Source of the DNA: Nanobdellota archaeon
GTDB taxonomy: Archaea > Nanobdellota > Nanobdellia > Woesearchaeales > JAGLGH01
Assembly: GCA_023144115.1 (NCBI GenBank)
Contig: JAGLGH010000085.1
Coordinates: forward strand, 1-12,019
Direction of reading: 5' to 3'
Length of the DNA stretch: 12,019 bases
Part shown: piece by piece, positions 1 through 12,019 of the stretch
Numbering within the stretch: position 1 is the first letter of the stretch
How the letters are laid out: each line of letters starts with the position of its first letter
Translations under genes and position numbers: made by a program
Notes under the pieces: generated by a model
Told to the model about the DNA's origin: nothing
Database searches by the model: none
The model's input: the letters and a program-made list of their open reading frames with translations, nothing else

Positions 1-969
1 GAAGGAGAAAGGAAACATTATGATTGCTGTCTCAATTGCAGCGAAAAAAATAATTGCTCAGGAATATATGAAAGATATGCAGATGCTTTTGGTATAGATG
101 AATTCACGCCAATGATTCATCCTATTGCGAATTCTTTTAATTATTTTAAAATTGATGAATCTGACAACTTTGAATGGCAAGAACAAACGTCAAAATACCC
201 GAATTGCAGAGACATATGCTTAATCAATGATAATGGCTGCAAAATATTCCATACAGGAACAAAAGATTTTAATGACACAACAATCAAAAAAATAAAGGAT
301 TTGCAGCAAATCTATATTAACATCTCTCCTAAGAAGCAATCACAAGATTTCAGCAAAAGTTACAGGAAGCTTGTTCTCAGTGAGAATCAGGAGAACTGTT
401 ATAATATCCTGCATGAAGATATTTTTGCAAGAGATGATAAAATACTGCTTAACATATTAGCAGATATAAATGGCAATGTACTTGATATAGGATGCAATGA
501 TTTGAAATATACTGATTTGATACGCGAAAAAATAAAAAAAGAAGCAATTAGATATGAAGGTATTGACCCTGATGAACTTGCAATAAAAAAAGCGAAGCAA
601 AAACTGCCAGGTGTTAATTTTGAATGCATAAGTTTTGAAGAATTTAATAGCGATAAGAAATATGATTATGTACTACTTTTGAGGTCATTGAATCATTTCA
701 GAGATGTTCCTGCAGTAATCAGGAAATGCACCTCAATATTAAAGGATGGAGGAAAATTGATTATCTGTGATAATGCTCCATTTGGTGTAGTCCAGCAAGA
801 AATAGAAGAAGAAAAAGGATGTGAAACAGAAAGTCGAGAGCATTACCACAATCTGTTTTCTGATGATCTTGCGCAAATTGTAAAAAGAGAGCCATTCAAA
901 ATTATATTGCAAAAAAAGATTGATGAAAAATCATCAAATCAATGGCTAATGGTATTGGAAAAGATTTAA
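1..969 (+). CDS. Radical SAM C-terminal tail fused to class I methyltransferase (5' partial)
   Basis: The frame is open from base 1, so the gene starts left of the window; 322 codons are visible. The first ~38 residues are the end of a radical SAM module: C10, C13 and C19 form Cx2Cx5C, followed by SGIYERYADAFGIDEF, almost the same wording as the tails of the minus-strand genes. The ATG at 112 falls just after this tail and is an internal methionine. A linker of ~110 residues follows, then a Rossmann-type SAM methyltransferase: motif I VLDIGCND at about 160-167, acidic residue D189 in YEGIDPD, a DYVLLLRSLNHF strand, and LKDGGKLIICDN. It resembles the Methyltransf_11/25 group. The acceptor is unknown. 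The stop is followed after one base by the next ATG, so it is probably co-transcribed with gene 2. The fusion of an rSAM module to a conventional methyltransferase suggests two consecutive steps on one substrate (inference). Confidence 0.9.
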   Translation, partial: EGERKHYDCCLNCSEKNNCSGIYERYADAFGIDEFTPMIHPIANSFNYFKIDESDNFEWQEQTSKYPNCRDICLINDNGCKIFHTGTKDFNDTTIKKIKDLQQIYINISPKKQSQDFSKSYRKLVLSENQENCYNILHEDIFARDDKILLNILADINGNVLDIGCNDLKYTDLIREKIKKEAIRYEGIDPDELAIKKAKQKLPGVNFECISFEEFNSDKKYDYVLLLRSLNHFRDVPAVIRKCTSILKDGGKLIICDNAPFGVVQQEIEEEKGCETESREHYHNLFSDDLAQIVKREPFKIILQKKIDEKSSNQWLMVLEKI

Positions 970-970
970 A

Positions 971-3166
971 ATGGCAAAAATACTGCTCATAAATCCATGT
1001 TTAAGAATTGATAATGATTTTATAGATTATCCTTACTTTGTTAATCAGGGGCTGTATCTTATCAGGGAACTATTGATTAATCTGGGTCATGATGCGATGC
1101 TTTTTGATTCATTTTGCAATCCTCTTGTCAGGAAAACAGAAGAGGGTTATATTCTTGGTTCCAATGATGGCCTTTTTGAAAATATCAAAAAGTTCAAACC
1201 TGATTTTTCAATAATACTCAACAGCCCATTCTTAAAATTATTTAACAAAAAAGAGAATGATGATATTCTCAATTTGATTGCTTGTCTGAAGCAAAACAAC
1301 AGCAAAGTAATATTGGCTGATTGCTTTACAACTGGAATGCATTATTATGATTATGATGCAGAAGAAATAAGGAAGAATTATGGATTTGATGCTGTCTGCA
1401 AACATGAATCTGAGCAAGCTCTTTTAAATGCAATTGATCATTTAAGTAAGTCTTTAAAATCCTGCAGCAAACCAATATTTGCAGATAATCTTGATGATTT
1501 GCCATTGCCAGCATTTTCAGAAAAGGAACTGGATAATTATAACCAATTTTTGTTGGAATGCGAAAAAAATGGATTGACTGATTTGCTTAATTTTGAAAAA
1601 AAGACTTTGCCATTGATTACAAGCAGGGGCTGCATGTATAACTGCATATTCTGTTCAAGCAGAATTTATGATAGAAAATACAGGCAGCATAGTATAGAGT
1701 ATCTGGATAAGCAGCTGGAATATGCTGTGAATCAACATGAAATCCAGAAAGTAGTATTCCTTGATGACCTATTAAATCCAAGTAAAGAAAGATTAATCCA
1801 GATTCTTGACCTGCTTGAGAAATATGGGCTTGCCTGTGAAATACCCAATGGGCTGCGGGCTGACAATCTAGATGAAAATATATTAGCAAGACTTAAGGAG
1901 TTCACAGATTGGATAAAAATATCAGCAGAGAGTGGAATCCAAAAAACAATGGATAAGATTGGCAAAGGATTAGATCTTGATTCTGTGACAAGAACAGCTA
2001 AGATATGCAAAGAATTGAAACTTCCGCTATTAGTACACTTCATGATTGGTTTTCCTTTTGAAACAATAAAAGATATGAACAAGACACTAAAGTTTGCGCT
2101 TGAACTGCATGAAAAATATGAAGCAAAACCTTTGCTGCAATTTGCAGCCCCTATTAAAGGAAGCAAGCTATATGGCATGTACGAAGATGCACCTGAGAAT
2201 TATATGGGATATTTGAATGGAGAACTGCAAAAAAACAAAGAGTCTCTTAAAAAATTAAAGACATCATTTAAATTGAGAATGGATAAAGATAAACTTGAAA
2301 AGATAATCATAAATGTAACTTACGAATGCAACAATAACTGTGTCTTCTGCGCAATAGGGGACAGAAGAAGCCTAAGCGGGGATTACAAATACCAGAGGGA
2401 TTCTATGATTAAAGCAAGAAAAAAAGGAGTATCCTGTATTGATTTTGATGGCGGCGAGCCAACACTTTCGCCAAATCTTATCAGACTTATCCACTATGCA
2501 AAAAAGTTAGGATATTCACAGATAAACTTGACGACAAATGGCAGGATTCTATCAGATATGAGGAATGCCAAAAAAATATGCAATTCAGGCATAACTTCAA
2601 TCCTTTTTTCACTTCATGGTCCAAATGCTGAAATACATGAGAGGATTACAAGAACTAAAGGCAGTTTTATCGAGGCTGTCCAAGGTATCAATAATGTTCT
2701 TAAACTAAAAAACAAGAAGCTTGATGTGGGAATCAATATTACGTTGGCTGATAAGAATATTCAGCATTTAGAAGATTTTGTTGAGTTCATAAGACTGCTA
2801 GGAATAAAAAAATTGAATATCCAGATGCTGACGCCATTTGGAGTAGCGCGAAAAGATCTCTTGCCTGATGAGAATATTCTCAGGAAAAAGATTAATGAAG
2901 TGATGCTAAAACATGACAAAGACTTTAAGATAAATCTTATTAATTTCATATCCTGTTTTTTTGAAGATAACAAAAAGCTTGAAGAGGAATTGATATCTGA
3001 TTTTGGAAAAAACCAAAGAAATATGCTTTTTATAGATAGAGAAGAACAAAACCTGGCAGACTTTTTAAGTAAGAAAAGATTCAAGACAGAAAAATGTAAG
3101 TTTTGTGCGTATGATATAATATGCAAAGGATTTTGGGATTTTGGTAAAAATGAAAAAAAAGAATAA
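971..3166 (+). CDS. B12-binding-type radical SAM fused to a second radical SAM enzyme
   Basis: The 731-residue protein holds two enzymes in series. Residues 1 to ~195 start MAKILLINP and look like the N-terminal fold of cobalamin-binding rSAM proteins, but I see no DxHxxG cobalamin-ligand motif; this is common in class B rSAM enzymes. The first rSAM core has C221, C225, C228 (CMYNCIFC), then FLDDLLNP, an ESG motif and HFMIGFPFET, all typical of the B12-rSAM/Elp3-like group. It breaks off near residue 420 and a second core begins: C453, C457, C460 (CNNNCVFC), GGEP at 494-497, and SLHGPNAEIHERITR. C662 and C709/C712/C718 (Cx2Cx5C) are likely auxiliary-cluster ligands. The tail is short, with no GxxEF. 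The ATG at 971 lies one base after the upstream stop, with a weak GGAAAAG upstream. Class B enzymes often methylate unactivated carbons; here the substrate is unknown. Confidence 0.93.
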   Translation: MAKILLINPCLRIDNDFIDYPYFVNQGLYLIRELLINLGHDAMLFDSFCNPLVRKTEEGYILGSNDGLFENIKKFKPDFSIILNSPFLKLFNKKENDDILNLIACLKQNNSKVILADCFTTGMHYYDYDAEEIRKNYGFDAVCKHESEQALLNAIDHLSKSLKSCSKPIFADNLDDLPLPAFSEKELDNYNQFLLECEKNGLTDLLNFEKKTLPLITSRGCMYNCIFCSSRIYDRKYRQHSIEYLDKQLEYAVNQHEIQKVVFLDDLLNPSKERLIQILDLLEKYGLACEIPNGLRADNLDENILARLKEFTDWIKISAESGIQKTMDKIGKGLDLDSVTRTAKICKELKLPLLVHFMIGFPFETIKDMNKTLKFALELHEKYEAKPLLQFAAPIKGSKLYGMYEDAPENYMGYLNGELQKNKESLKKLKTSFKLRMDKDKLEKIIINVTYECNNNCVFCAIGDRRSLSGDYKYQRDSMIKARKKGVSCIDFDGGEPTLSPNLIRLIHYAKKLGYSQINLTTNGRILSDMRNAKKICNSGITSILFSLHGPNAEIHERITRTKGSFIEAVQGINNVLKLKNKKLDVGINITLADKNIQHLEDFVEFIRLLGIKKLNIQMLTPFGVARKDLLPDENILRKKINEVMLKHDKDFKINLINFISCFFEDNKKLEEELISDFGKNQRNMLFIDREEQNLADFLSKKRFKTEKCKFCAYDIICKGFWDFGKNEKKE

Positions 3167-4031
3167 TTTTCATCAATTTGCGATAAGCGCCAAATGCAAT
3201 AATAATTGCATTTTTTGCAGTGATAAGAATATGCCAATCCCTAAAAAACCATATACACTTGATAACATAAAAAAATCAATAGATTCCCTGATTGAGGTAA
3301 ATAAGATTAAAGGAATTTTTTTGACTTCAAATGAACCCACATTAAACAAAGACTTATTCAGGATATTGCAATACATGCGCAGCAAAAAGCTTGAAATAAA
3401 ACTTAATACGAATGCAAGGATTTTTTCAATCAAGAAAAATGTTGAGAGAATCAAAAAATTAGGCATCACTGAGTTAAGAATCTCAATCCATGGACATAAT
3501 GCAAGAATCCATGATGCAATCACTAGGTCACCTAATAGTTTTGAGCAAACAGCAGCAGGAATCAAAAATCTCAAGTCTGTTGGCGCATATGTGAGTACAA
3601 ATACTGTGATATGCAAGATGAACTATCAATACTTATCCAAGATCTTATTATTCTTGTCTGGTCTCAAGGTTGACAAGATAGACTTTTTTGGTGTAAAACC
3701 TACAGGCAATGGCAAAAAGAATTTTGAACTTGTTATGCCAAGATTTAGTGCTATTGTTCCCTATATTGATGAATTGTACAAGAGTGGCAAACAGGATAAT
3801 ATCACATTTAGTCTTTCAAACATACCTTTTTGCTTCCTCGAACATGAAAAGTTTAAAGTAGGACAAAAGATAACTCCGTTCTATTATCAGCATGATAAAT
3901 TAAGGCTTAACTTAGATACATTCACAAATAAGATTAAGATGGATAAATGCAAATCTTGTGATGATTATGAGGAATGCGGAGGGGTCTACAAAATTTATTT
4001 AGAAAAATATGGCTCAGAGGAATTTAAATGA
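3150..4031 (+). CDS. Single-module radical SAM protein with degenerate GGEP
   Basis: I place the start at ATG 3150 (293 residues). An in-frame TTG at 3141 would add only MVK. The gene overlaps the end of gene 2 by 17 bases in another frame, which suggests translational coupling. The core motif is C16, C20, C23 (CNNNCIFC). The usual GGEP is replaced by SNEP at 60-63, although the flanking PTLNKDL is kept. SIHGHNARIHDAITR follows near 112-126, then the KPTGNG step, NIPFCFL with C228, and the terminal C267, C270, C276 triad followed by GGVYKIYLEKYGSEEF. Together C228 and the triad could hold one auxiliary [4Fe-4S] cluster. The reaction and substrate are unknown. The module most resembles the one in gene 8 (shared IHxH, ITR/LTR and KPxGN features), although the two lie on opposite strands. 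Confidence 0.9.
   Translation: MKKKNNFHQFAISAKCNNNCIFCSDKNMPIPKKPYTLDNIKKSIDSLIEVNKIKGIFLTSNEPTLNKDLFRILQYMRSKKLEIKLNTNARIFSIKKNVERIKKLGITELRISIHGHNARIHDAITRSPNSFEQTAAGIKNLKSVGAYVSTNTVICKMNYQYLSKILLFLSGLKVDKIDFFGVKPTGNGKKNFELVMPRFSAIVPYIDELYKSGKQDNITFSLSNIPFCFLEHEKFKVGQKITPFYYQHDKLRLNLDTFTNKIKMDKCKSCDDYEECGGVYKIYLEKYGSEEFK
4014..4030 (+). promoter_or_regulatory. Shine-Dalgarno site for gene 4 inside the end of gene 3
   Basis: GAGG at 4017-4020 lies seven bases before the ATG at 4028. It is the clearest Shine-Dalgarno match in the window. The same bases encode the conserved terminal EEF residues of gene 3, so the protein motif and the ribosome-binding site coincide. Confidence 0.6.
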
Positions 4032-4891
4032 ATAAAAGGATTGATTTAGTGCTCAGCATGGAATGCAACCAGAGATGCACATTCTGCTTTAATCATGCAA
4101 TCAAAAAAAGATATGACAAAGAAAAATTCTCTCTAAATAATCTTAAGATGACATTAGAAAAGGGAGTTAAAGAAGGCATAACCAGCGTTTCAATCTCTGG
4201 CGGCGAGCCAACAATTTCAAAAGATTTTTTTCAAGTCCTTAATCTGGCTTCAAGACTTGGCTACAAAGACATAAGAGTCATTACCAATGGAATGATGTTT
4301 TATTATGATGCTTTTGCAAAAAAGGCAAGCAAGATGGGGATAAATCAAATCTGTGTTTCCTTGCACGGAAATTCGCCTGAGATTCACGATAAGTTTACTA
4401 AAGTGAAAGGCTCATTTGAAAAGGTGATAAAAGGAATAAAAAACATAAAAAAATATTTTAAAAATATCCAGCTCACTGCCCATGTGGTCCTGACTAAAGA
4501 GACAACATCAATTCTTGAAGAGCATACAAGATTTCTGATAGATTTAGGTTTTGATGCAGTCAATTTCCTTTATCTTATGGCCAATTCTGAACTGAATTCA
4601 AAGCTTGCTCCTAATTCAACCCTGGTAAAAGAAAAATTAGAAAAAGTGATTGAGCAATATAAAGACGACATATATATCCACATAGGTTATCTGGAACCTT
4701 GCTTGCTGCCAGGATATGAAAAGTATTTTGATACAAATGACTTTGACATGGAATTTATCAGCAACTGCAATGAGTTATTTGAAGATTGGAAACAGACCTT
4801 GCTTGATAATAAATCAATGACTGAAGAATGCCATAATTGTAAATTTTCAAATATCTGCATGGGGCATTGGATTAAGAATATTAATTCTTGA
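4028..4891 (+). CDS. Single-module radical SAM protein
   Basis: This 287-residue protein shares an ATGA overlap with the stop of gene 3. It has a clear Shine-Dalgarno site, so the start is well supported. The core motif is C13, C17, C20 (CNQRCTFC), followed by an intact SGGEPT (GGEP 58-61) and SLHGNSPEIHD. The family's mid-protein Cys lies in LEPCLLPGYEKYF (C225). The terminal triad C268, C271, C277 is followed by only ten residues (MGHWIKNINS), so the aromatic/GxxEF tail of its relatives is missing. It is the last gene of the rightward group and ends three bases from the stop of the convergent minus-strand gene. Its reaction is unknown; the motifs support SAM cleavage and one auxiliary Fe-S cluster. 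Confidence 0.93.
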   Translation: MNKRIDLVLSMECNQRCTFCFNHAIKKRYDKEKFSLNNLKMTLEKGVKEGITSVSISGGEPTISKDFFQVLNLASRLGYKDIRVITNGMMFYYDAFAKKASKMGINQICVSLHGNSPEIHDKFTKVKGSFEKVIKGIKNIKKYFKNIQLTAHVVLTKETTSILEEHTRFLIDLGFDAVNFLYLMANSELNSKLAPNSTLVKEKLEKVIEQYKDDIYIHIGYLEPCLLPGYEKYFDTNDFDMEFISNCNELFEDWKQTLLDNKSMTEECHNCKFSNICMGHWIKNINS

Positions 4892-4904
4892 TTATTATTG
4901 TTTT
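4874..4904. terminator. Weak hairpin at the convergent gene junction
   Basis: AAGAAT (4874-4879), loop ATTA, then ATTCTT (4884-4889) form a 6-bp, mostly A/T stem overlapping the last codons of gene 4. A T-rich run through about 4904 follows. It sits where the two gene groups converge, so it may help stop transcription, but the stem is weak and could be chance in A/T-rich DNA. Confidence 0.2.
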
Positions 4905-5746
4905 CCGGAGATTATTTTGAGATAATCAGATCTATATCCCATGCAATATTTCTTTATGCTGCAATTTGCGCATTTTTCAATAAATATCCTTCCAGAAAGA
5001 TTTTTCATCTCATGTGTTTTCATGTAATATTCTATGGCACTGTTGAAATTATCGCCTAAATAACAAAGAGGGATGCCGTTTGTCTGGATTTTTAGCCCAT
5101 ATTTCTTTGCCAACAATATTGCTTCATTAAGTTCTTTAGCAAATTCCTCAATTGAAGGAAACAGACTTATGTTTGCTTCAGCATTTCCTAAGCTCTGGAT
5201 TAACTTGAATTCTATTGATCCTATGCCTTTAAAATTTTGATTTATGAATCTTACAAAATTTAGGATATCATGCTGATTATGCTTATTTATTAAATACACG
5301 AGCCTTACTTTATGCGCTTGATTCAATCCGATTATATTTTTTAACGCCTGAACCTTATTATCAAAAGAACTATTGTGGCTGGAGAGAAAATCATTCAATT
5401 TGTCATTTGGCGCATGGAATGCAAAGAAAACCTGATCCAAGCCAGCATTAAAAAGTGATTCTGTGTATTTTAGATATGATAATCTTAATCCATTTGTCAC
5501 TAAAGTTACTTTTTTTCCCTTTTGCTTGGCATATCTTATCAAATTGACAAGTTCGGGCTGGAGAGTAGGTTCTCCGCCCTGGAAAAATACTTCTTTTTCT
5601 GCTGCATCAACTAATGATTTTACCTTGCTTATATCAATCTCTGTTTCAGGATAACCTGAGCAAAAAATACACTTTTGATTGCAAGCGGCAGCTACATTTA
5701 TGACGTTCTTTTGTCTTTTCTCTGTATCTGATTTGTCCAATTTCAT
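4895..5746 (-). CDS. Single-module radical SAM protein
   Basis: This 283-residue protein is the last gene of the leftward group. Its core motif is C22, C26, C29 (CNQKCIFC), with an intact GGEP at 57-60. The SxH motif has become FAFHAPND, and the following HDxxTR segment is not conserved. A SLGNAEANISLFP stretch matches the family's xxGNA step. GIPLCYL holds C228, but no GYExF follows. The terminal triad is C259, C262, C268 (CANCSIKKYCMG), followed by a short tail without GxxEF. The ATG at 5746 has no Shine-Dalgarno site; a stop codon in the 26-bp upstream gap rules out a longer start. The reaction is unknown; motifs predict a SAM-cleaving cluster plus one auxiliary cluster. Confidence 0.92.
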   Translation of the reverse strand: MKLDKSDTEKRQKNVINVAAACNQKCIFCSGYPETEIDISKVKSLVDAAEKEVFFQGGEPTLQPELVNLIRYAKQKGKKVTLVTNGLRLSYLKYTESLFNAGLDQVFFAFHAPNDKLNDFLSSHNSSFDNKVQALKNIIGLNQAHKVRLVYLINKHNQHDILNFVRFINQNFKGIGSIEFKLIQSLGNAEANISLFPSIEEFAKELNEAILLAKKYGLKIQTNGIPLCYLGDNFNSAIEYYMKTHEMKNLSGRIFIEKCANCSIKKYCMGYRSDYLKIISGKQ

Positions 5747-5772
5747 TTTATTGTATCTATTGCCAACCCATA

Positions 5773-6672
5773 TTACCTGTCAATCTGTTTGAGTTTTGGC
5801 ATACCATGTATTTTTATGTACTCTTTATCTATGCCAGGACATGAATTTAAATGTTTACAGTTTTCACAATTTGGAATTTTGATATGCGTATTTTTAAAGC
5901 TTTCATTGAATTCAAAACTGTGTTCTCCTTCTATTATAGTCAATCTGGTATTTTCCAGGTCAAGCATAAATTCCTCATAACCCTCTAATAAGCAATAAGG
6001 CATATACTGGACAGTACATTCTAAGTCTGGGTCTTCTTTACAAATATCAAGGCATTTTTTTAGTTGCGGGCATATGTCATCAATTTTGGGGATCACAGTT
6101 TTGGCATTTATTTTTGAATTCCCTGCAATTCCTGGAAACTTAAAATTGAATTTCTTTATTCCGTAATATCTCAAGAAATCAAAAATATTTTTAAGATCAT
6201 TGAAGTTGAGTTTAGTGATAACTATATCAATCTCGGTTGTTATTTGCATTTTTTTTATGTTTTCAAGAGCTCTTAATATCAAATCAAAACAACCGCCCAG
6301 GCTTGTCATCTTTTCATATTTTGCTTTTTCGACGCTGCAAATAGTGATGCCTATTGAACTTATGCCTGCTTCTAACAGTTTCTTCAGGTAATCCTCTCTT
6401 GCCAGCATAATCCCGTTAGTCTGTAATTTAATTTCTTCAAAACCAATATATCCTGCAAACTTAATCATATCAATCAAAGATTGCCTGATAGTAGGTTCGC
6501 CCCCATTAAAACATAATGAGCCATATCCTTCTTTTTTCAATTTGATTATAGAAGATCTTATAGATGAAAATGAATAATTCTTATCCCTGCGACTGGAACA
6601 GCCCATACAAAAATCACAATTCATATTACATGAATATCCTGTTATTATGTCAACATATTTTTTTGTTTCCAT
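5773..6672 (-). CDS. Divergent single-module radical SAM protein, Cys-rich
   Basis: The protein has 299 residues. The core motif is C15, C19, C22 (CNMNCDFC), with an additional C25 close by. NGGEPT has GGEP at 57-60 and is followed by LQTNG. At the place where every other complete GGEP-type module in the window has SxH, this one has GITICSVEKAKYEK, so the His motif is lost. Other family marks remain: a GIAGNSKINAKTVIP step, MPYCLLEGYEEF with C227, and C269, C272, C278 followed by PGIDKEYIKIHG. Extra Cys residues at 201, 207, 211 and 219 are unusual for the family. The ATG lies two bases after the stop of gene 7, suggesting co-translation. It is probably a paralogue with a different substrate or reaction (inference). 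Confidence 0.92.
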   Translation of the reverse strand: METKKYVDIITGYSCNMNCDFCMGCSSRRDKNYSFSSIRSSIIKLKKEGYGSLCFNGGEPTIRQSLIDMIKFAGYIGFEEIKLQTNGIMLAREDYLKKLLEAGISSIGITICSVEKAKYEKMTSLGGCFDLILRALENIKKMQITTEIDIVITKLNFNDLKNIFDFLRYYGIKKFNFKFPGIAGNSKINAKTVIPKIDDICPQLKKCLDICKEDPDLECTVQYMPYCLLEGYEEFMLDLENTRLTIIEGEHSFEFNESFKNTHIKIPNCENCKHLNSCPGIDKEYIKIHGMPKLKQIDR

Positions 6673-6674
6673 TT

Positions 6675-7655
6675 TTAAACTATCTTTTTCTTAATATTTT
6701 CAGGTTTATCAAAAGAAGGAGAAAGCTCGTCAATCCCATGAATTTGGGCATATTCTTTTTGAAGACCTGCACAAATGCTATTTAATCTGCATTGGCTGCA
6801 GCATTCGCTTTTAACTCTCCTTATATTTGGTGGAACTGTTCTCACATCATATCCCTTATCTGGCCTGAGAAATGCGCATGTGTATGTTTCATTCTTGACT
6901 ATCTTTCTGGTTTCTGTTGAAAACTCTTCAAATCCGCGCATATAACAAAGCGGAACCCGTTCAATCCTGAATGTTTTATTGTTTTGCTTAAGCAATCTTG
7001 CTGCTTTTGCAAGCCCTAACTCAAAATCCACTAATCTTGCGATTATTTCAGGATGTTCTCCTGCTCTGCTCTTATTAACACCATCTGCATTTCCAGGATC
7101 AAGATTATTAAATACATAGTGCTTCACTTCAGGAAATCTTCTGATCAAAAATGAGATAAATTCATATAAGCACTTTGCATTTTGAGAGTTTATTGTAGTA
7201 TTAATATTTATTGTCATGCCTGCAGCAAGCGCGTTTTCTATGCCTTTTATCGTCTTTCTCCAATGCCCTTTTTTTTGCGCCATTGAATCTGCAATATCCT
7301 CTTTATAATGGTGTATTGAAATATTTATATCTTTAAGTCCTGCCCCTTTAAGCTCTTTTACAAGAGATTTATTGGAGAGTTCGACACCATTGGATATCAT
7401 TCTTACATTCAATCTGTTTTCTTTTATGAACCTTATAAGGCTTGATAGATTCTCTGAAATAGTTGGTTCGCCGCCTGAGAGAAGAATTTCAGTAATTCCT
7501 TCTGAATTGAATTTCAAAACTTCTTTTTTTAGGTCATCAAGTGAAGACTCCTGTTCAAACTGAGGATTTGAGCAGAATATGCATCTATTATTGCATTTCC
7601 TTGTGACCTGCAGGTAAGCTGCTGTTCTCTTCTTCTGGTCCATTTTTCTTCTCAT
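6675..7655 (-). CDS. Single-module radical SAM protein
   Basis: I keep the ATG at 7655 (326 residues) because AGGA lies just upstream; M5 at 7643 is an alternative. The core motif is C21, C25, C28 (CNNRCIFC), with SGGEPT (GGEP 61-64) and SIHHYKEDIADSM in place of the usual SIHxHxxxIHD. A NLDPGNADG step follows, then VPLCYMRGFEEF with C237. The terminal triad C286, C289, C295 continues into AGLQKEYAQIHGIDEL, the family tail, plus a basic extension. Additional C260 and C285 lie in a segment longer than in its neighbours. A 60-bp gap, the largest in the window, separates it from gene 8. The substrate is unknown. Confidence 0.93.
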   Translation of the reverse strand: MRRKMDQKKRTAAYLQVTRKCNNRCIFCSNPQFEQESSLDDLKKEVLKFNSEGITEILLSGGEPTISENLSSLIRFIKENRLNVRMISNGVELSNKSLVKELKGAGLKDINISIHHYKEDIADSMAQKKGHWRKTIKGIENALAAGMTININTTINSQNAKCLYEFISFLIRRFPEVKHYVFNNLDPGNADGVNKSRAGEHPEIIARLVDFELGLAKAARLLKQNNKTFRIERVPLCYMRGFEEFSTETRKIVKNETYTCAFLRPDKGYDVRTVPPNIRRVKSECCSQCRLNSICAGLQKEYAQIHGIDELSPSFDKPENIKKKIV

Positions 7656-7715
7656 CAGTTCCTGATTGCTGCTTAATATATCCTCATATTTTTACTATCA
7701 TTATTCCTGATTTCT
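7656..7715 (-). promoter_or_regulatory. 60-bp gap with A/T-rich boxes; possible internal promoter
   Basis: This is the longest non-coding stretch. On the minus strand it contains TATATTAA (7673-7680) and a second A/T box around 7686-7694, then AGGA next to the gene 7 ATG. One of these could be an archaeal TATA box giving genes 7, 6 and 5 their own promoter. Spacing is not decisive and the whole window is A/T-rich, so this is weak. No open reading frame of useful length is present. Confidence 0.2.
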
Positions 7716-9560
7716 TTATTCATTCCGAAAGTCAAATAAGCACCAAGTATCTTTAAGTTTTAATTCGCCAATAAGGTCGGTTCCTTTGAACACTCTGGCC
7801 TGTGTTACTTGATCATGGCAGTCAAAGCATATCTTATTTCCTTTTTTTAATATATCAGCCAATAAATATAAATCCTCGCTTCCGGGCTCCATAAAATCTG
7901 CGGCAAATTGAGTGGATGCAATAAATGAATTGTAGACAATTCCTGAATTAGTTGATTCAGTTGATTTATCATTAACTGATTCACCATCGAAAACTATATA
8001 GTTATTGAAGTTTTGATACAGCACATGGCTCTTTAATATCTTTTTTATTTTCTCTCTTGAATCCCTTTTCTGTCCTGCATCCCCTTTGCCATTTGCTGCT
8101 AAGTCCAGCATCTTATCTGCATAAGAAGCAGCATTCCTGCAATTATATGAGCATGGAAAAAATTCAATCAGCCTGTAAGGGTTTATTAGATTATTTAGTT
8201 TCCAATTCAGTTTCCCTATTGTATTCTTTTTCAGCGCAAGATTTGCTGTCTTATCATCTACATATTCCTCAATTCCAGCAAATCTTTCAACACAACATAG
8301 AGGATATCCTAACAGCCTGCCTGTTTTGATATTAGCTGCTGCAGAATCTTTGCCTGATTCATGCTCCAGTTCTGTCGCTTCTGCCAGTTCATCTAACAGC
8401 TCTTTATCCTTTGATATGAATATTGACGTATAATTATCTTCACTCTCAAATTTTGCCTGCGAAAATTTCATATTTTTGGCATCAAGGACAAATTGTTTAG
8501 CCATAAGCTTATAGTGCAATTCATATTTTATTATCAATGAGATTATTTTTTGCAACTCACTTATTTTGACAAGCTCTATCCTTGCGCAGGGCTTGATTCC
8601 CTGTTTGACTGCAGCAATTGGCATGAGGTAAAGAGGGTCTTCCCATAACTCTTTTTTCAGTATAATAATTGGCTTAAACTCATCAACCCCGTAAATCCGG
8701 GCATATTCTTGCCAGATGCCTGCGCAATTTTTGTTTATTGAGCATTTCCTGCAGGAATCAGGCTTAATCTTATTTTCAAACTCTTCATTATCATGATATT
8801 CCCCTTTATAATAAATCTGCATTTTTTCATATTCCCTGCCTTCTTTATTGATACATGAGGGTATGCCTGAAAGGGTGACAGGAATCTTTAGGTCATAATG
8901 CTTATTTTTAAAATCATTGAATTCTTTGACAATCTCTGAATAATACGGAAGCAGGATATGTGAATTTTTGAAAGCATTTCCCTGCGGCTTTACAACATTA
9001 AGATTTATGCTCTGCACGCTGTATTTGGATAAAAAAGAATAAAAACCATGAAAATCATGATTGGCTTTTGTTATGGTAGCATTAATCTTAAATTTCACTG
9101 GATATCTTTTTTTAATTAGTGAAATATTTTTCAGCGCTTTTTTTGTTTGATTGAAGCTTATTGTCCTTGTGAGGGCATTGTGTATCTTAGGGTCATGCGA
9201 GTGTATTGAAATTGTGATCTCGTTCAGCCCTGAACTTAAAATCTTTTTTGCATAACCATAATAAGCAAGCATCCTGCCATTAGTAACCAGGTTAATCTTC
9301 TCATATCCCTTATTTTTTGCTGTTCTTATCCAGCTAATCAAATCCTTATTAAGTGTTGGCTCTCCGCAGGAAAAAGTTAATTTTCCTAAATGCCTGTGTT
9401 CCTCCAGGACTTTTACAACTTCCTCCTGCTTCATCTTTTGCCTTTCTGAATCACAGCAGAAGATGCAGTTATTATTGCATCTGTCTGAGACATCTATCCT
9501 TAAGCTTTCAAAATCCTCATCTCTTAATGATTTATCTGATGCCAAACTCTTCTTCACCAT
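7716..9560 (-). CDS. Radical SAM module fused to a DUF483-like domain
   Basis: The protein has 614 residues. Residues 1 to ~300 are a full rSAM module: C28, C32, C35 (CNNNCIFC), a CGEP at 65-68 in place of GGEP, SIHSHDPKIHNALTR, VVKPQGNAF, GIPSC with C236, and C270, C273, C279 followed by AGIWQEYARIYGVDEF. The remaining ~300 residues are a different domain. It carries TGRLLGYPLCCVERF (C422, C423) and, 47 residues later, FFPCSYNC (C470, C474). This pairing of LGYPxCC with PCSxxC is what I remember of the archaeal DUF483 family, whose function is not known to me. The four Cys could bind a metal. Another Cys pair, CFDC, lies at 578-581. The ATG at 9560 overlaps the end of gene 9 by 29 bases, and no convincing later start precedes the core. 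Confidence 0.93.
   Translation of the reverse strand: MVKKSLASDKSLRDEDFESLRIDVSDRCNNNCIFCCDSERQKMKQEEVVKVLEEHRHLGKLTFSCGEPTLNKDLISWIRTAKNKGYEKINLVTNGRMLAYYGYAKKILSSGLNEITISIHSHDPKIHNALTRTISFNQTKKALKNISLIKKRYPVKFKINATITKANHDFHGFYSFLSKYSVQSINLNVVKPQGNAFKNSHILLPYYSEIVKEFNDFKNKHYDLKIPVTLSGIPSCINKEGREYEKMQIYYKGEYHDNEEFENKIKPDSCRKCSINKNCAGIWQEYARIYGVDEFKPIIILKKELWEDPLYLMPIAAVKQGIKPCARIELVKISELQKIISLIIKYELHYKLMAKQFVLDAKNMKFSQAKFESEDNYTSIFISKDKELLDELAEATELEHESGKDSAAANIKTGRLLGYPLCCVERFAGIEEYVDDKTANLALKKNTIGKLNWKLNNLINPYRLIEFFPCSYNCRNAASYADKMLDLAANGKGDAGQKRDSREKIKKILKSHVLYQNFNNYIVFDGESVNDKSTESTNSGIVYNSFIASTQFAADFMEPGSEDLYLLADILKKGNKICFDCHDQVTQARVFKGTDLIGELKLKDTWCLFDFRNE
8106..8528 (-). other. DUF483-like domain within gene 8
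   Basis: Residues ~345-485 of gene 8. Key marks are GRLLGYPLCC at 414-423, ERF directly after it, and PCSYNC at 469-474. The assignment is from memory of the family pattern, not from a search. A further ~130 residues after it match nothing I recognise. Confidence 0.6.
9466..9482. repeat. 17-bp identical match shared with 10418-10434
   Basis: The sequence cagttattattgcatct occurs here (gene 8 core) and at 10418-10434 (gene 9 module d core). On the minus strand it encodes the CNNNC region in both. It is a trace of common origin or a codon-level coincidence over a conserved motif, not a mobile or regulatory repeat. Confidence 0.5.
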
Positions 9561-12019
9561 ATTTTTTTAGATAATTCTTCCAGATCCCCTCGCAATCACA
9601 GGCATATCTGCATCTGCTGCAAATATCTAGCTTGGATTTAAGATTATCTTTCCTATCCTGCACCCATAGGATTTCCTGTTTTAGTGAAGAATCACTAAAA
9701 GAGCAAACAGAATCAATATGATCCTCTTTTCCTGATGCAAATTTTTTAAGAGCTGGAATCTTATTTATGATGCAAAGCGGAATGTCTCCAAAAGACAAGT
9801 GAACATCTCCTTGCTCTTGAGCAAGCGAAACAATCTCTTTAAGAGCATTTGGAATCTCCACAAACTTTGGAACAACACTATTAAAGTTCTCTAATGCATT
9901 TCCAGCAGGATTGATTGAATTAATCCTAAAGTCATTAAATCCCAGCTTCATAAAAAAATCAACTGAGCTGGCTAATGAATCAATATTAAGTCTTGAAATA
10001 ATAAATGTCAATGCAGCGCTAAAAGAATGTTTTCTGCTTTTTTGCATATTAACAACATTCAGTATCCCTTTCATCTTTTGCCTATGGCTGCCTGCGATGC
10101 CGGATAACCTGTCCCCAATCGTCTCAATATGGGAATGGGCAGAGATTACAATCCTATTAAGGCCTGCTTCAAGAAGGGATTTGAGAAAATTTTTATCTGA
10201 AAACTTTTTGCAGTTTGTTACTATATTAATTTCCTTATATCCTAAGCTCTTTGCATAACTTATTATTTCTACTATGTTAGGATATATTGTAGGTTCTCCA
10301 CCTACAAACCCAATAGAATTATAGCCATCTTCAAAATATTTTTTGATCTCTTTTTTTATCTTTTCGCAATCCGCAAATTCCCTGAATAATGACTCCTGCG
10401 GCACCATGCAGAAAATACAGTTATTATTGCATCTTTTTCCCAGATTCACTTCAATATGCTTCTTTCCTGCAGCCTTAATAACCTGATTTTTGAATTCATC
10501 CTCACCATGGATATTGATGTATTCTTGCCAGATTCCATTGCAAATATTATCCAATATGCACCCTTGGCACGAGCTGAGCTTTATTTTATCTTCACAATCC
10601 CTCCATCTCTCTGGCTCGTTGTATTCATCACAGAAATTTTCATATCCCTGCAAAAAACAGAGGGGAATGCCGCATCTGCCTGGGATACAAAAAGATATAT
10701 CTTTCTTAATCAAATAATCCATAGCAGTCTTAAGGTAAGGGATTACATCAGAGATCTTTGGGATTATTGAAGGATTTTTAAGCGCGCTGCAAACAGGCGA
10801 GGCAAAAGAGAACACAATCTTTGTCACACCCAGATCCTCTACTATAAATCTGGCATGTTCAGGAAGGATTTTATAATTAATTGAATTTATCACAATGTTG
10901 ATTGACAGACCTATATCATTGAGCGCAAGATTCCTTATTCCTTCTATTGTTTTTTCAAATGTTCCGGGTGCGCATGTAATTCTATCTGATATTCCAGATT
11001 CATGAGCATGCAAAGAAACAAATGCATCAGTAAGCCCTGCATCTGACAGATCCTTTACAAAAGATGCAGCAGCGCATTTTACTGCATTTGTCTGAATCTC
11101 TATCTTATGGCATCCCTCTTCTTTTGCGAGCTTTATGTATTTCAGAATATTTTTATTTAATGTCGGCTCCTTTCCTGAAATAATAAGATATAATGACTTG
11201 TTCTCTTTGATGGCCTTTAAAATCTTGTCATGATCTAAAATCAAATCATTTGCATTTTCATCAGTATTGCAAAATGAGCATCTCTGGTTGCATTCAAGGT
11301 TGATTCTTATTTCCCTTGGTTTAAGTATTCCAGTCTCAATGTTGGCAGGGTCAAATTCGCTAAAGCCAAAGATTCTTGCATAATTCTGAAAAAATCCCTC
11401 GCACTCTTCATTTAATGGGCAGACTGCGCATATCTCTCTTTTGATTTTTGTCTTGCAGCAAATATCTTTAGCAATATTCACATAATCTAATTTGCCATCT
11501 TTAACATATTCCTTCTTCAACAGATAAGTTTGCTTTTCTATATTTCTGGTCAGGAAAATGCATGGAGGAATATTCTTTGTCTTCCAAAGCCTTACATTTT
11601 TCACTGCTTCAGCCAGGTATGACTTAATTTCAGTAAATTGAGGGACTTTTGACTTATACTCATTAAGGGAATAGCCTGGCGCTTCAAATTCAAAAATTAT
11701 TTTATTTTTCCCTTTTGTCATCTCAGGGAGTTTTTCATAATTTTGCCTTGTTATTGTTATCTTTTCAAAGCCAGCTGCATTCTTGCCCTGCTCTTCAGCA
11801 TTGCAATTATCCTGAATATTCCTAATATCTCCACTCTCCTTAATATTCATAAAACTCTCATTTAGTGCCTGGATTGTGGGGCATATTGAATTGATTCCGC
11901 AATATTTGCACTTTCCGCCAAGGCATTCTGGAATCTGCTTGTTCAGGAATACGTCGTTGCAGCATCCCCTTACATCATCCACCATCTTATAAGGATCCTC
12001 AATAAACTCTTCATAACCT
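9532..12019 (-). CDS. Multi-module radical SAM chain (5' partial, open at right edge)
   Basis: Reading leftwards, the frame is open from the window edge. Eleven codons before the ATG at 11985 encode GYEEFIEDPYK, which matches the GYExF motif of sister modules, so that ATG is internal. Numbering from it, residues 1-41 end one module (C26, C29, C35). Residues 72-213 are a half-module with C142 and C186, C189, C195 but no rSAM core. Residues 222-500 are a full module: C232/C236/C239, GKEP 271-274, SLHAHES, C443 in IPLCFLQGYENF, and C473/C476/C482. Residues 508-817 are another: C519/C523/C526, GGEP 562-565, SAHSHIE, C738, C789/C792/C798. At least 828 residues are visible. Such chaining is rare for rSAM enzymes. 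It heads the leftward group in this window. Consecutive reactions, or alternate subunits of one assembly, are possible (inference). Confidence 0.92.
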   Translation of the reverse strand, partial: GYEEFIEDPYKMVDDVRGCCNDVFLNKQIPECLGGKCKYCGINSICPTIQALNESFMNIKESGDIRNIQDNCNAEEQGKNAAGFEKITITRQNYEKLPEMTKGKNKIIFEFEAPGYSLNEYKSKVPQFTEIKSYLAEAVKNVRLWKTKNIPPCIFLTRNIEKQTYLLKKEYVKDGKLDYVNIAKDICCKTKIKREICAVCPLNEECEGFFQNYARIFGFSEFDPANIETGILKPREIRINLECNQRCSFCNTDENANDLILDHDKILKAIKENKSLYLIISGKEPTLNKNILKYIKLAKEEGCHKIEIQTNAVKCAAASFVKDLSDAGLTDAFVSLHAHESGISDRITCAPGTFEKTIEGIRNLALNDIGLSINIVINSINYKILPEHARFIVEDLGVTKIVFSFASPVCSALKNPSIIPKISDVIPYLKTAMDYLIKKDISFCIPGRCGIPLCFLQGYENFCDEYNEPERWRDCEDKIKLSSCQGCILDNICNGIWQEYINIHGEDEFKNQVIKAAGKKHIEVNLGKRCNNNCIFCMVPQESLFREFADCEKIKKEIKKYFEDGYNSIGFVGGEPTIYPNIVEIISYAKSLGYKEINIVTNCKKFSDKNFLKSLLEAGLNRIVISAHSHIETIGDRLSGIAGSHRQKMKGILNVVNMQKSRKHSFSAALTFIISRLNIDSLASSVDFFMKLGFNDFRINSINPAGNALENFNSVVPKFVEIPNALKEIVSLAQEQGDVHLSFGDIPLCIINKIPALKKFASGKEDHIDSVCSFSDSSLKQEILWVQDRKDNLKSKLDICSRCRYACDCEGIWKNYLKKYGEEEFGIR
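9535..10464 (-). other. Gene 9 module d: complete radical SAM module
   Basis: C519, C523, C526 (CNNNCIFC), VGGEPT, SAHSHIETIGDRLS, INPAGNALENF, GDIPLCII with C738, and the C789/C792/C798 triad with an extra C796, ending in EGIWKNYLKKYGEEEF. It carries the canonical GGEP that module c lacks. Confidence 0.88.
10486..11322 (-). other. Gene 9 module c: complete radical SAM module
   Basis: C232, C236, C239 (CNQRCSFC), SGKEPT in place of SGGEPT, IQTNA in place of the usual TNG, SLHAHES with ISDRIT, ASPVCSALKN, IPLCFLQGYENF, and the C473/C476/C482 triad followed by NGIWQEYINIHGEDEF. The changed GGEP and TNG suggest altered SAM binding. Confidence 0.85.
11347..11772 (-). other. Gene 9 module b: half-module lacking the radical SAM core
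   Basis: It starts at a segment matching the late strands of other modules (ITITRQNY, FEFEAPGYSL, VPQFTEI). It then has NIPPCIFL (C142) and C186, C189, C195 followed by EGFFQNYARIFGFSEF. There is no CxxxCxxC or GGEP between it and module a, so it cannot cleave SAM by itself but could still hold an auxiliary cluster. Confidence 0.75.
11863..12019 (-). other. Gene 9 module a: C-terminal tail only
   Basis: GYEEF precedes a Cys-rich stretch (CC at 8-9, C21) and Cx2Cx5C at C26, C29, C35, ending in PTIQ without GxxEF. Its core must lie to the right of the window. Confidence 0.75.

Follow-up and report, generated by a model that had tools for sequence, protein, structure and literature searches.

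What would a small archaeal genome do with a dozen related radical S-adenosylmethionine (SAM) modules, most of them side by side on one contig? The question is raised by contig JAGLGH010000085.1 of a Nanobdellota archaeon (contig C393 of a 1.72 Mb genome in 408 contigs, 87% complete), the whole of which, 12,019 bases, was analysed and is called the window here. We consider it probable that the window forms the downstream, array-bearing part of an expanded His-Xaa-Ser (Hxs) locus, in which the peptide HxsA would be modified by specialised HxsC-like paralogs to give a surface product. This reading is built on sequence similarity, linkage by contig overlaps, co-occurrence across genomes and the age of the paralogs; HxsA as the substrate, a different step for each module and surface display of the product are what we infer.

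The array and its modules

The radical SAM array is real and unusual. Nine open reading frames (ORFs) take up 11,926 of the 12,019 bases (99% coding), four on the forward strand followed by five on the reverse strand in convergent sets, and the gaps between them are short or the ORF ends overlap. The initial annotation had described the window as holding hardly any non-coding DNA and no other type of stand-alone gene, and this is borne out: no stand-alone gene of another kind was found among the nine ORFs, and ARAGORN predicted neither tRNA nor tmRNA. Its ten CxxxCxxC cores were also recovered, against 0.148 on average and never more than 2 in 2000 shuffles of the proteins, together with eleven CxxCx5CxG motifs (0.0065 from shuffled proteins). 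Ten of the 51 genome-wide PF04055 matches at E 0.001 fall on this contig, and HxsC-like radical SAM modules are likewise present on further contigs outside the window. An assembly artefact, raised from the outset as a possible undoing of the array, is unlikely because the database proteins P0001, P0032 and P0117 represent 90%-identity clusters with 7, 6 and 8 member sequences, and the longest contigs behind them (23,276, 40,021 and 4,312 bp) differ in size from C393 and from C288, a second contig of this genome.

An array of thirteen modules of one family had been proposed. The array itself stands, but it comprises nine complete HxsC-like modules, one core is of the B12 type, and two of the supposed remnants are cuts made by contig ends. 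The core at residue 221 of ORF2 (CMYNCIFC) has its best models in the B12-type radical SAM families HpnJ, Sden_1168 and TIGR04013, which rules out a single family throughout; ORF2 gave no B12-binding Pfam match at E 0.01. Scoring all 23 candidates in the genome yielded twelve HxsC-like modules, nine of them in the window, with the next match at 57 bits.

Of the eight radical SAM proteins, six have HxsC4 as their top NCBIfam model and two have HxsC, all below the curated cut-offs. None of 22 own-genome matches exceeded the 267.9 bits required for HxsC (TIGR03977), the best single match reaching 113.7, and the HxsC4 (NF038332) cut-off of 500 bits was unmet, single-module proteins scoring at most 181. 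With the MoaA models (TIGR02668, TIGR02666, NF001199) whole proteins scored at most 112 bits against equivalog cut-offs of 231 to 325, and the nine window proteins had no Pfam match to SPASM (PF13186) at E 0.001. Since TIGR03977 also matches all 14 control genomes below its cut-off, the HxsC-like assignment rests on rank, motif pattern and context together. As to pattern, an alignment of the nine window modules with three relatives has as invariant positions the three SAM-cluster Cys and the Asn that follows, Glu and Thr in the GGEPT region, another two Asn, a lone Cys (C237) and the three Cys of CxxCx5C with its Gly; the four C-terminal Cys could hold an auxiliary iron-sulfur cluster. Annotated HxsC proteins of three bacterial plasmids (L216, L217, L219) share this ending, a single Cys after a Leu-rich stretch and then CxxCx5CxGF. 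In a quick tree of 38 rows, the deepest forks of which are weak (79), they fall among the modules, with eleven other radical SAM rows on one side (96).

Three C-terminal remnants had been described as well, of which the outer two were made by the contig ends and the middle one is truly core-less. The remnant at the window start runs on into C288 to give a module-methyltransferase protein of 574 residues, and the database protein P0117, of the same length, is 99% identical to the joined frame. At the far end P0001 (1070 residues; cluster of 7 members), 100% identical over the shared part, completes ORF9, its first module being full, with the core CNNNCQFC; the missing 5' part of ORF9 is on no contig of the genome's own assembly. 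A HAD hydrolase was considered in complete ORF9 and rejected, the PF00702 match sitting inside a module and below cut-off. The core-less unit is kept, with its Cys, in six of the seven homologs read (P0001, P0002, P0004, P0006, P0008 and P0011; not P0014) and, to judge from this conservation, may be a non-catalytic or docking domain.

Linkage and co-occurrence with hxs genes

Contig overlaps place the array, in all likelihood, downstream of hxsD, hxsD-like, hxsB and hxsA in its own genome. All four are encoded on contig C173, each scoring over its NCBIfam cut-off: HxsD (51.0 bits, cut-off 50), HxsD-like (67.3, cut-off 41), HxsB (474.2, cut-off 370) and HxsA4. C173 and C288 share 150 bp at one end of each, with 2 mismatches, and at its opposite end C288 has an exact 51-bp overlap with the window start; the latter join restores the single frame of 574 residues and is backed independently by P0117, the evidence for the former being the overlap itself. 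The joined C173-C288-C393 sequence (21.8 kb) starts with the end of a membrane-protein gene, a fragment that clusters with A24-type peptidases (BLAST), followed by hxsD, an ORF of 136 residues, hxsD-like, hxsB, hxsA and an ORF of 255 residues; it goes on with three reverse-strand ORFs, a module, a radical SAM gene that clusters with a B12-binding one, the module-methyltransferase gene and window ORF2 to ORF9. Extending the contig on both sides, by overlaps and with P0001, completed the end modules and reached further modules and hxs genes. A second hxsA copy in this genome is possible.

The same association is seen on single contigs elsewhere. In G024, a genome of another family of the order, contig L052 carries hxsD, hxsD-like, hxsB and two hxsA together with a module array in which ORF2, ORF6 and the final ORF9 module of the window have their sisters and ORF7 has a close relative. 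Arrays lie near hxsB on one contig in G072, G138 and G150 also, and among relatives HxsC-like modules adjoin HxsD, HxsD-like, HxsB and proteins with tandem His-Xaa-Ser triplets. A protein of 594 residues with PPDK_N and PEP-utilizers domains lies inside the G024 array (L052:7564-9345).

Across 193 genomes of the order, HxsB was found in 48 at E 1e-40 (39 over cut-off), HxsD in 50 (24 over cut-off), HxsA4 in 17 (4 over cut-off; one of 14 controls also matches) and the module alignment at E 1e-20 in 78. Among the 28 genomes in which a module reaches 200 bits or more, a set chosen post hoc, 26 have HxsB, against 22 of the 165 others; the link is weaker at the looser module threshold (38 of 78) because that threshold also admits other radical SAM proteins. 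HxsA4 was matched in 14 of 16 genomes with at least three modules of 140 bits against 1 of 12 with one or two (Fisher p 5e-5, relatedness not corrected, for a likewise post hoc split of hand-sorted genomes). G112 and G152, with HxsA4 matches in frames of 479 and 555 residues, were placed among the 165 others, and G043 and G138 were scored as without HxsA4, though locus L120 of G138 holds a repeat peptide. As at most twelve candidates were scored per genome, module counts in this survey are lower bounds. The genus neighbour G001 (93% complete, the sole same-genus genome searched) has three modules of at least 140 bits against twelve here, and comparison of repeat number with module number gave nothing.

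A search with the canonical HxsC alignment confirmed 390 named loci, the best 80 of which were analysed, with HxsB, HxsD and peptidase calls from home-made profiles. Within these 80, 73 have a module of 140 bits and 35 at least three modules; HxsB, HxsD or HxsA lies on the same stretch in 19 of the 35, and HxsB in 16, with three to six modules per stretch. Those 16 loci come from records named Diapherotrites, Altiarchaeota, Omnitrophota, Elusimicrobia, Desulfobacterales and others. The search of related archaeal genomes that the initial annotation had proposed found similar arrays.

Age and layout of the modules

A module tree of 93 rows from 27 genomes was drawn from 127 hits of at least 60 bits by limits of 140 bits and 250 residues and by locus. 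Genome labels are scattered over this tree as in shuffles (77 label changes, the shuffles averaging 75.1). ORF2 pairs with L052:5407-7557 of G024 (support 100/99), both being two-core; ORF6 (100/94) and the last unit of ORF9 (98/94) also pair with G024, and the ORF8 module (100/97) and the third unit of ORF9 (100/100) with G171. ORF5 groups with G050 and G072 (99/96), and ORF7 stands in a trio with G024 and G171 (100/99). The only supported sisters within the genome are ORF4 and a module on C288. A canonical HxsC clade of 17 rows (100/100) takes in an own-genome module on contig C195. The scattered labels and the lone own-genome sister pair rule out recent tandem duplication within the genome, and the pairing of window modules with those of other families agrees with the initial suggestion of old duplication followed by divergence. 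Given these partners in other families and the three modules in G001, the paralogs are old and patchily kept, or have been exchanged between families.

Table 1. Features of the window, with the linked hxsA gene on contig C173
Feature	Position	Strand	Remarks
ORF1, 5' end cut by contig	1..969	+	HxsC-like module end and class I SAM methyltransferase; complete protein 574 residues
ORF1 C-terminal module part CLNCSEKNNCSG	about 1-117	+	HxsC-like
ORF1 class I SAM methyltransferase domain	about 463-906	+	Domain match
ORF2	971..3166	+	B12-type radical SAM domain fused to HxsC-like module
ORF2 B12-type radical SAM core match	1616-2098	+	Core CMYNCIFC at residue 221
ORF2 HxsC-like module	about 2273-3163	+	
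ORF3, HxsC-like module	3141..4031	+	Without supported partner in module tree
ORF4, HxsC-like module	4028..4891	+	Sister is own-genome module on C288 (L062:2508-3359)
ORF5, HxsC-like module	4895..5746	-	3' end of convergent reverse-strand set
ORF6, HxsC-like module	5773..6672	-	AlphaFold2 model, mean pLDDT 95.6
ORF7, HxsC-like module	6675..7655	-	
ORF8	7716..9560	-	HxsC-like module fused to DUF483 domain
ORF8 HxsC-like module	about 8649-9533	-	
ORF8 DUF483 domain (PF04467)	8127-8339	-	29.0 against Pfam cut-off 25
ORF9, 5' end cut by contig	9532..12018	-	Complete protein is P0001, 1070 residues
ORF9 end of a module	about 11854-12018	-	Cut by contig end
ORF9 core-less half-module	about 11344-11811	-	
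ORF9 third unit, module	about 10471-11343	-	
ORF9 last unit, module	about 9535-10482	-	
HxsA4 (NF038313)	C173:2947-3231		59.4 bits, cut-off 55

Proposed function, alternatives and known systems

In the sequence of events that we propose, the substrate would be HxsA, in the form of a small secreted peptide that has a leader like that of prepilins and ends in a His-Xaa-Ser tail. Presenting it to the enzymes would be the task of HxsD and HxsD-like, HxsB would make the first modification, and the HxsC-like paralogs, each specialised, would add further radical modifications. Fused domains would contribute additional chemistry, the B12-type and class I methyltransferase domains by methylating and DUF483 by a further step. 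A prepilin peptidase would then free the leader, after which the cell surface would display the modified His-rich peptide, plausible forms being a metal-binding polymer or a structural one. A bolder version, to which we give limited credence, is an assembly line in which a dozen non-redundant HxsC-like enzymes, with B12-type and methyltransferase help, would convert a pilin-like His-Xaa-Ser peptide into an exceptionally heavily radical-modified polymer. The resulting surface filament would carry novel cross-links or cofactors and might serve to handle metals or electrons, and the type of system would be common to ultrasmall archaea and several phyla of bacteria.

The N-termini of the repeat peptides share a pattern like FLxxEEGKISKE, followed by a hydrophobic stretch, with a loose EEG-like motif in 19 of a set of 33 sequences, at least one of which is entered twice. 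The accompanying membrane family has a member in L127 that matches Peptidase A24 (33.5 bits, cut-off 26.5) and one in L101 that matches the A24 archaeal C-terminal domain (24.8, cut-off 23.4). From sequence patterns of this kind we infer that HxsA may undergo prepilin-like processing. A variant of the repeat, His-Xaa-Thr (HSTHSTHGTH), occurs in an HxsA-like protein of 212 residues (L059:3200-3838) from G023, a genome without recognised HxsB.

Fusions extend beyond the window. More than 120 residues lie outside the recognised modules in 56 of 282 module proteins from the order and the named loci (some loci counted twice), and when 36 selected fusions were scanned against Pfam at E 1e-4, three gave DUF364, two DUF362 and two methyltransferase, with glycosyltransferase, redoxin-like and DUF483 matches in single members each. 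At L053:2463-4508 an HxsC-like module is joined to an HxsB domain, whose 277 bits, at residues 310-681, fall short of the HxsB cut-off of 370. In archaeal and bacterial Hxs arrays a DUF483 domain with the pattern GYPxCC...PCSxxC turns up repeatedly, either by itself or fused to a module (L205:194-1135, L160:7016-7897, L215:10292-11197); DUF483 matches were found in 57 of the 193 genomes, array-less ones included, and a related-locus search with ORF8 alone gave 20 stretches and no relative. Large secreted-looking proteins (386 to 1198 residues, some cut), possibly further substrates, adjoin canonical HxsC at L063:1601-5194, L051:3366-6575, L120:15662-18001 and L128:1-1160.

These last proteins bear on whether all modules share one substrate. 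Were a single canonical HxsC to act with HxsB on HxsA, the other modules might modify other secreted proteins, such as the large ones beside canonical hxsC. The recurrence of those proteins in several loci (e.g. L063, L051) fits such a division, as does the canonical HxsC clade, which is separate from the array modules and represented here on another contig (C195). We nevertheless regard it as unlikely, the array being contiguous with hxsB and hxsA by overlaps and near hxsB in four other genomes, and no conserved second substrate family having been noticed in the arrays by general clustering, no systematic search having been made. If instead the array acted on glycans or nucleotide sugars, like BlsE, for an unusual surface polysaccharide, its adjacency to hxs genes would reflect a shared surface-assembly island. 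This appears distinctly improbable in view of the module-HxsB fusion, the association of HxsA4 with module expansion and the position of annotated hxsC beside hxsA or hxsB on all three plasmids.

Hardly any weight falls on the notion that the array is a relic of duplicated modules decaying without function. The half-module without a radical SAM core and the contrast of three modules in G001 with twelve here might be expected of decay, but the SAM-cluster and C-terminal Cys are kept and the frames open in all nine complete modules, sisters persist in other families, and the half-module recurs with its Cys in six of the seven homologs read. An expanded Hxs locus whose HxsC-like paralogs act on HxsA is the explanation that we prefer. 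Here a known kind of locus comes with numerous divergent HxsC-like enzymes, fused tailoring domains and a peptidase family of the A24 type. HxsA can accordingly be put forward as a definite candidate substrate for a set of enzymes open to testing, and radical SAM genes that carry no database name beyond 'radical SAM protein' or 'cyclic pyranopterin phosphate synthase' gain a context. That a small genome devotes more than 12 kb to the array suggests that the product is important.

The initial annotation had envisaged a multi-step radical modification pathway not yet described; a multi-enzyme locus it is, but the array goes with a named system. The Hxs system, reportedly defined by Haft and Basu as HxsA, HxsB, HxsC and HxsD, is to our knowledge known from bioinformatics only, with its HxsB-HxsC pair, and biochemically uncharacterised. 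The present locus resembles it in having HxsA4, HxsB, HxsD and HxsD-like over cut-off and modules to which the HxsC models are nearest. It differs in the twelve modules of this genome, against one annotated hxsC in each of three plasmid stretches, and in that the modules are fused to other enzymes, are accompanied by an A24-type peptidase family and score below the HxsC cut-offs. One of those plasmid clusters, from Thioclava, is annotated with a MauG-like protein (L219:5747-6994), a hint at oxidative chemistry. One published account describes HxsA-type peptides as putatively dependent on HxsB and HxsC (PMC9062424), and searches of the open-licence literature, at the level of titles and opening lines of abstracts, brought up no mention of such arrays.

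The HxsC4/HxsA4 pair (NF038332, NF038313) comes near in that HxsC4 is the best model for six of the eight proteins and HxsA4 is over cut-off, single-module proteins here nonetheless falling short of the HxsC4 cut-off. The predicted fold aligns with SuiB, anSME, SkfB and 5why (CteB), peptide-modifying radical SAM enzymes that have auxiliary clusters, and does so for SuiB, 5why and anSMEcpe through the C-terminal region; in contrast to these enzymes, the modules are without a SPASM Pfam match at E 0.001 and have a shorter C-terminal region with a single Cys and CxxCx5CxG. Finally, the C-terminal domain of ORF8 is over the Pfam cut-off for DUF483, entered in Pfam as a protein of unknown function, and differs in being fused to an HxsC-like module.

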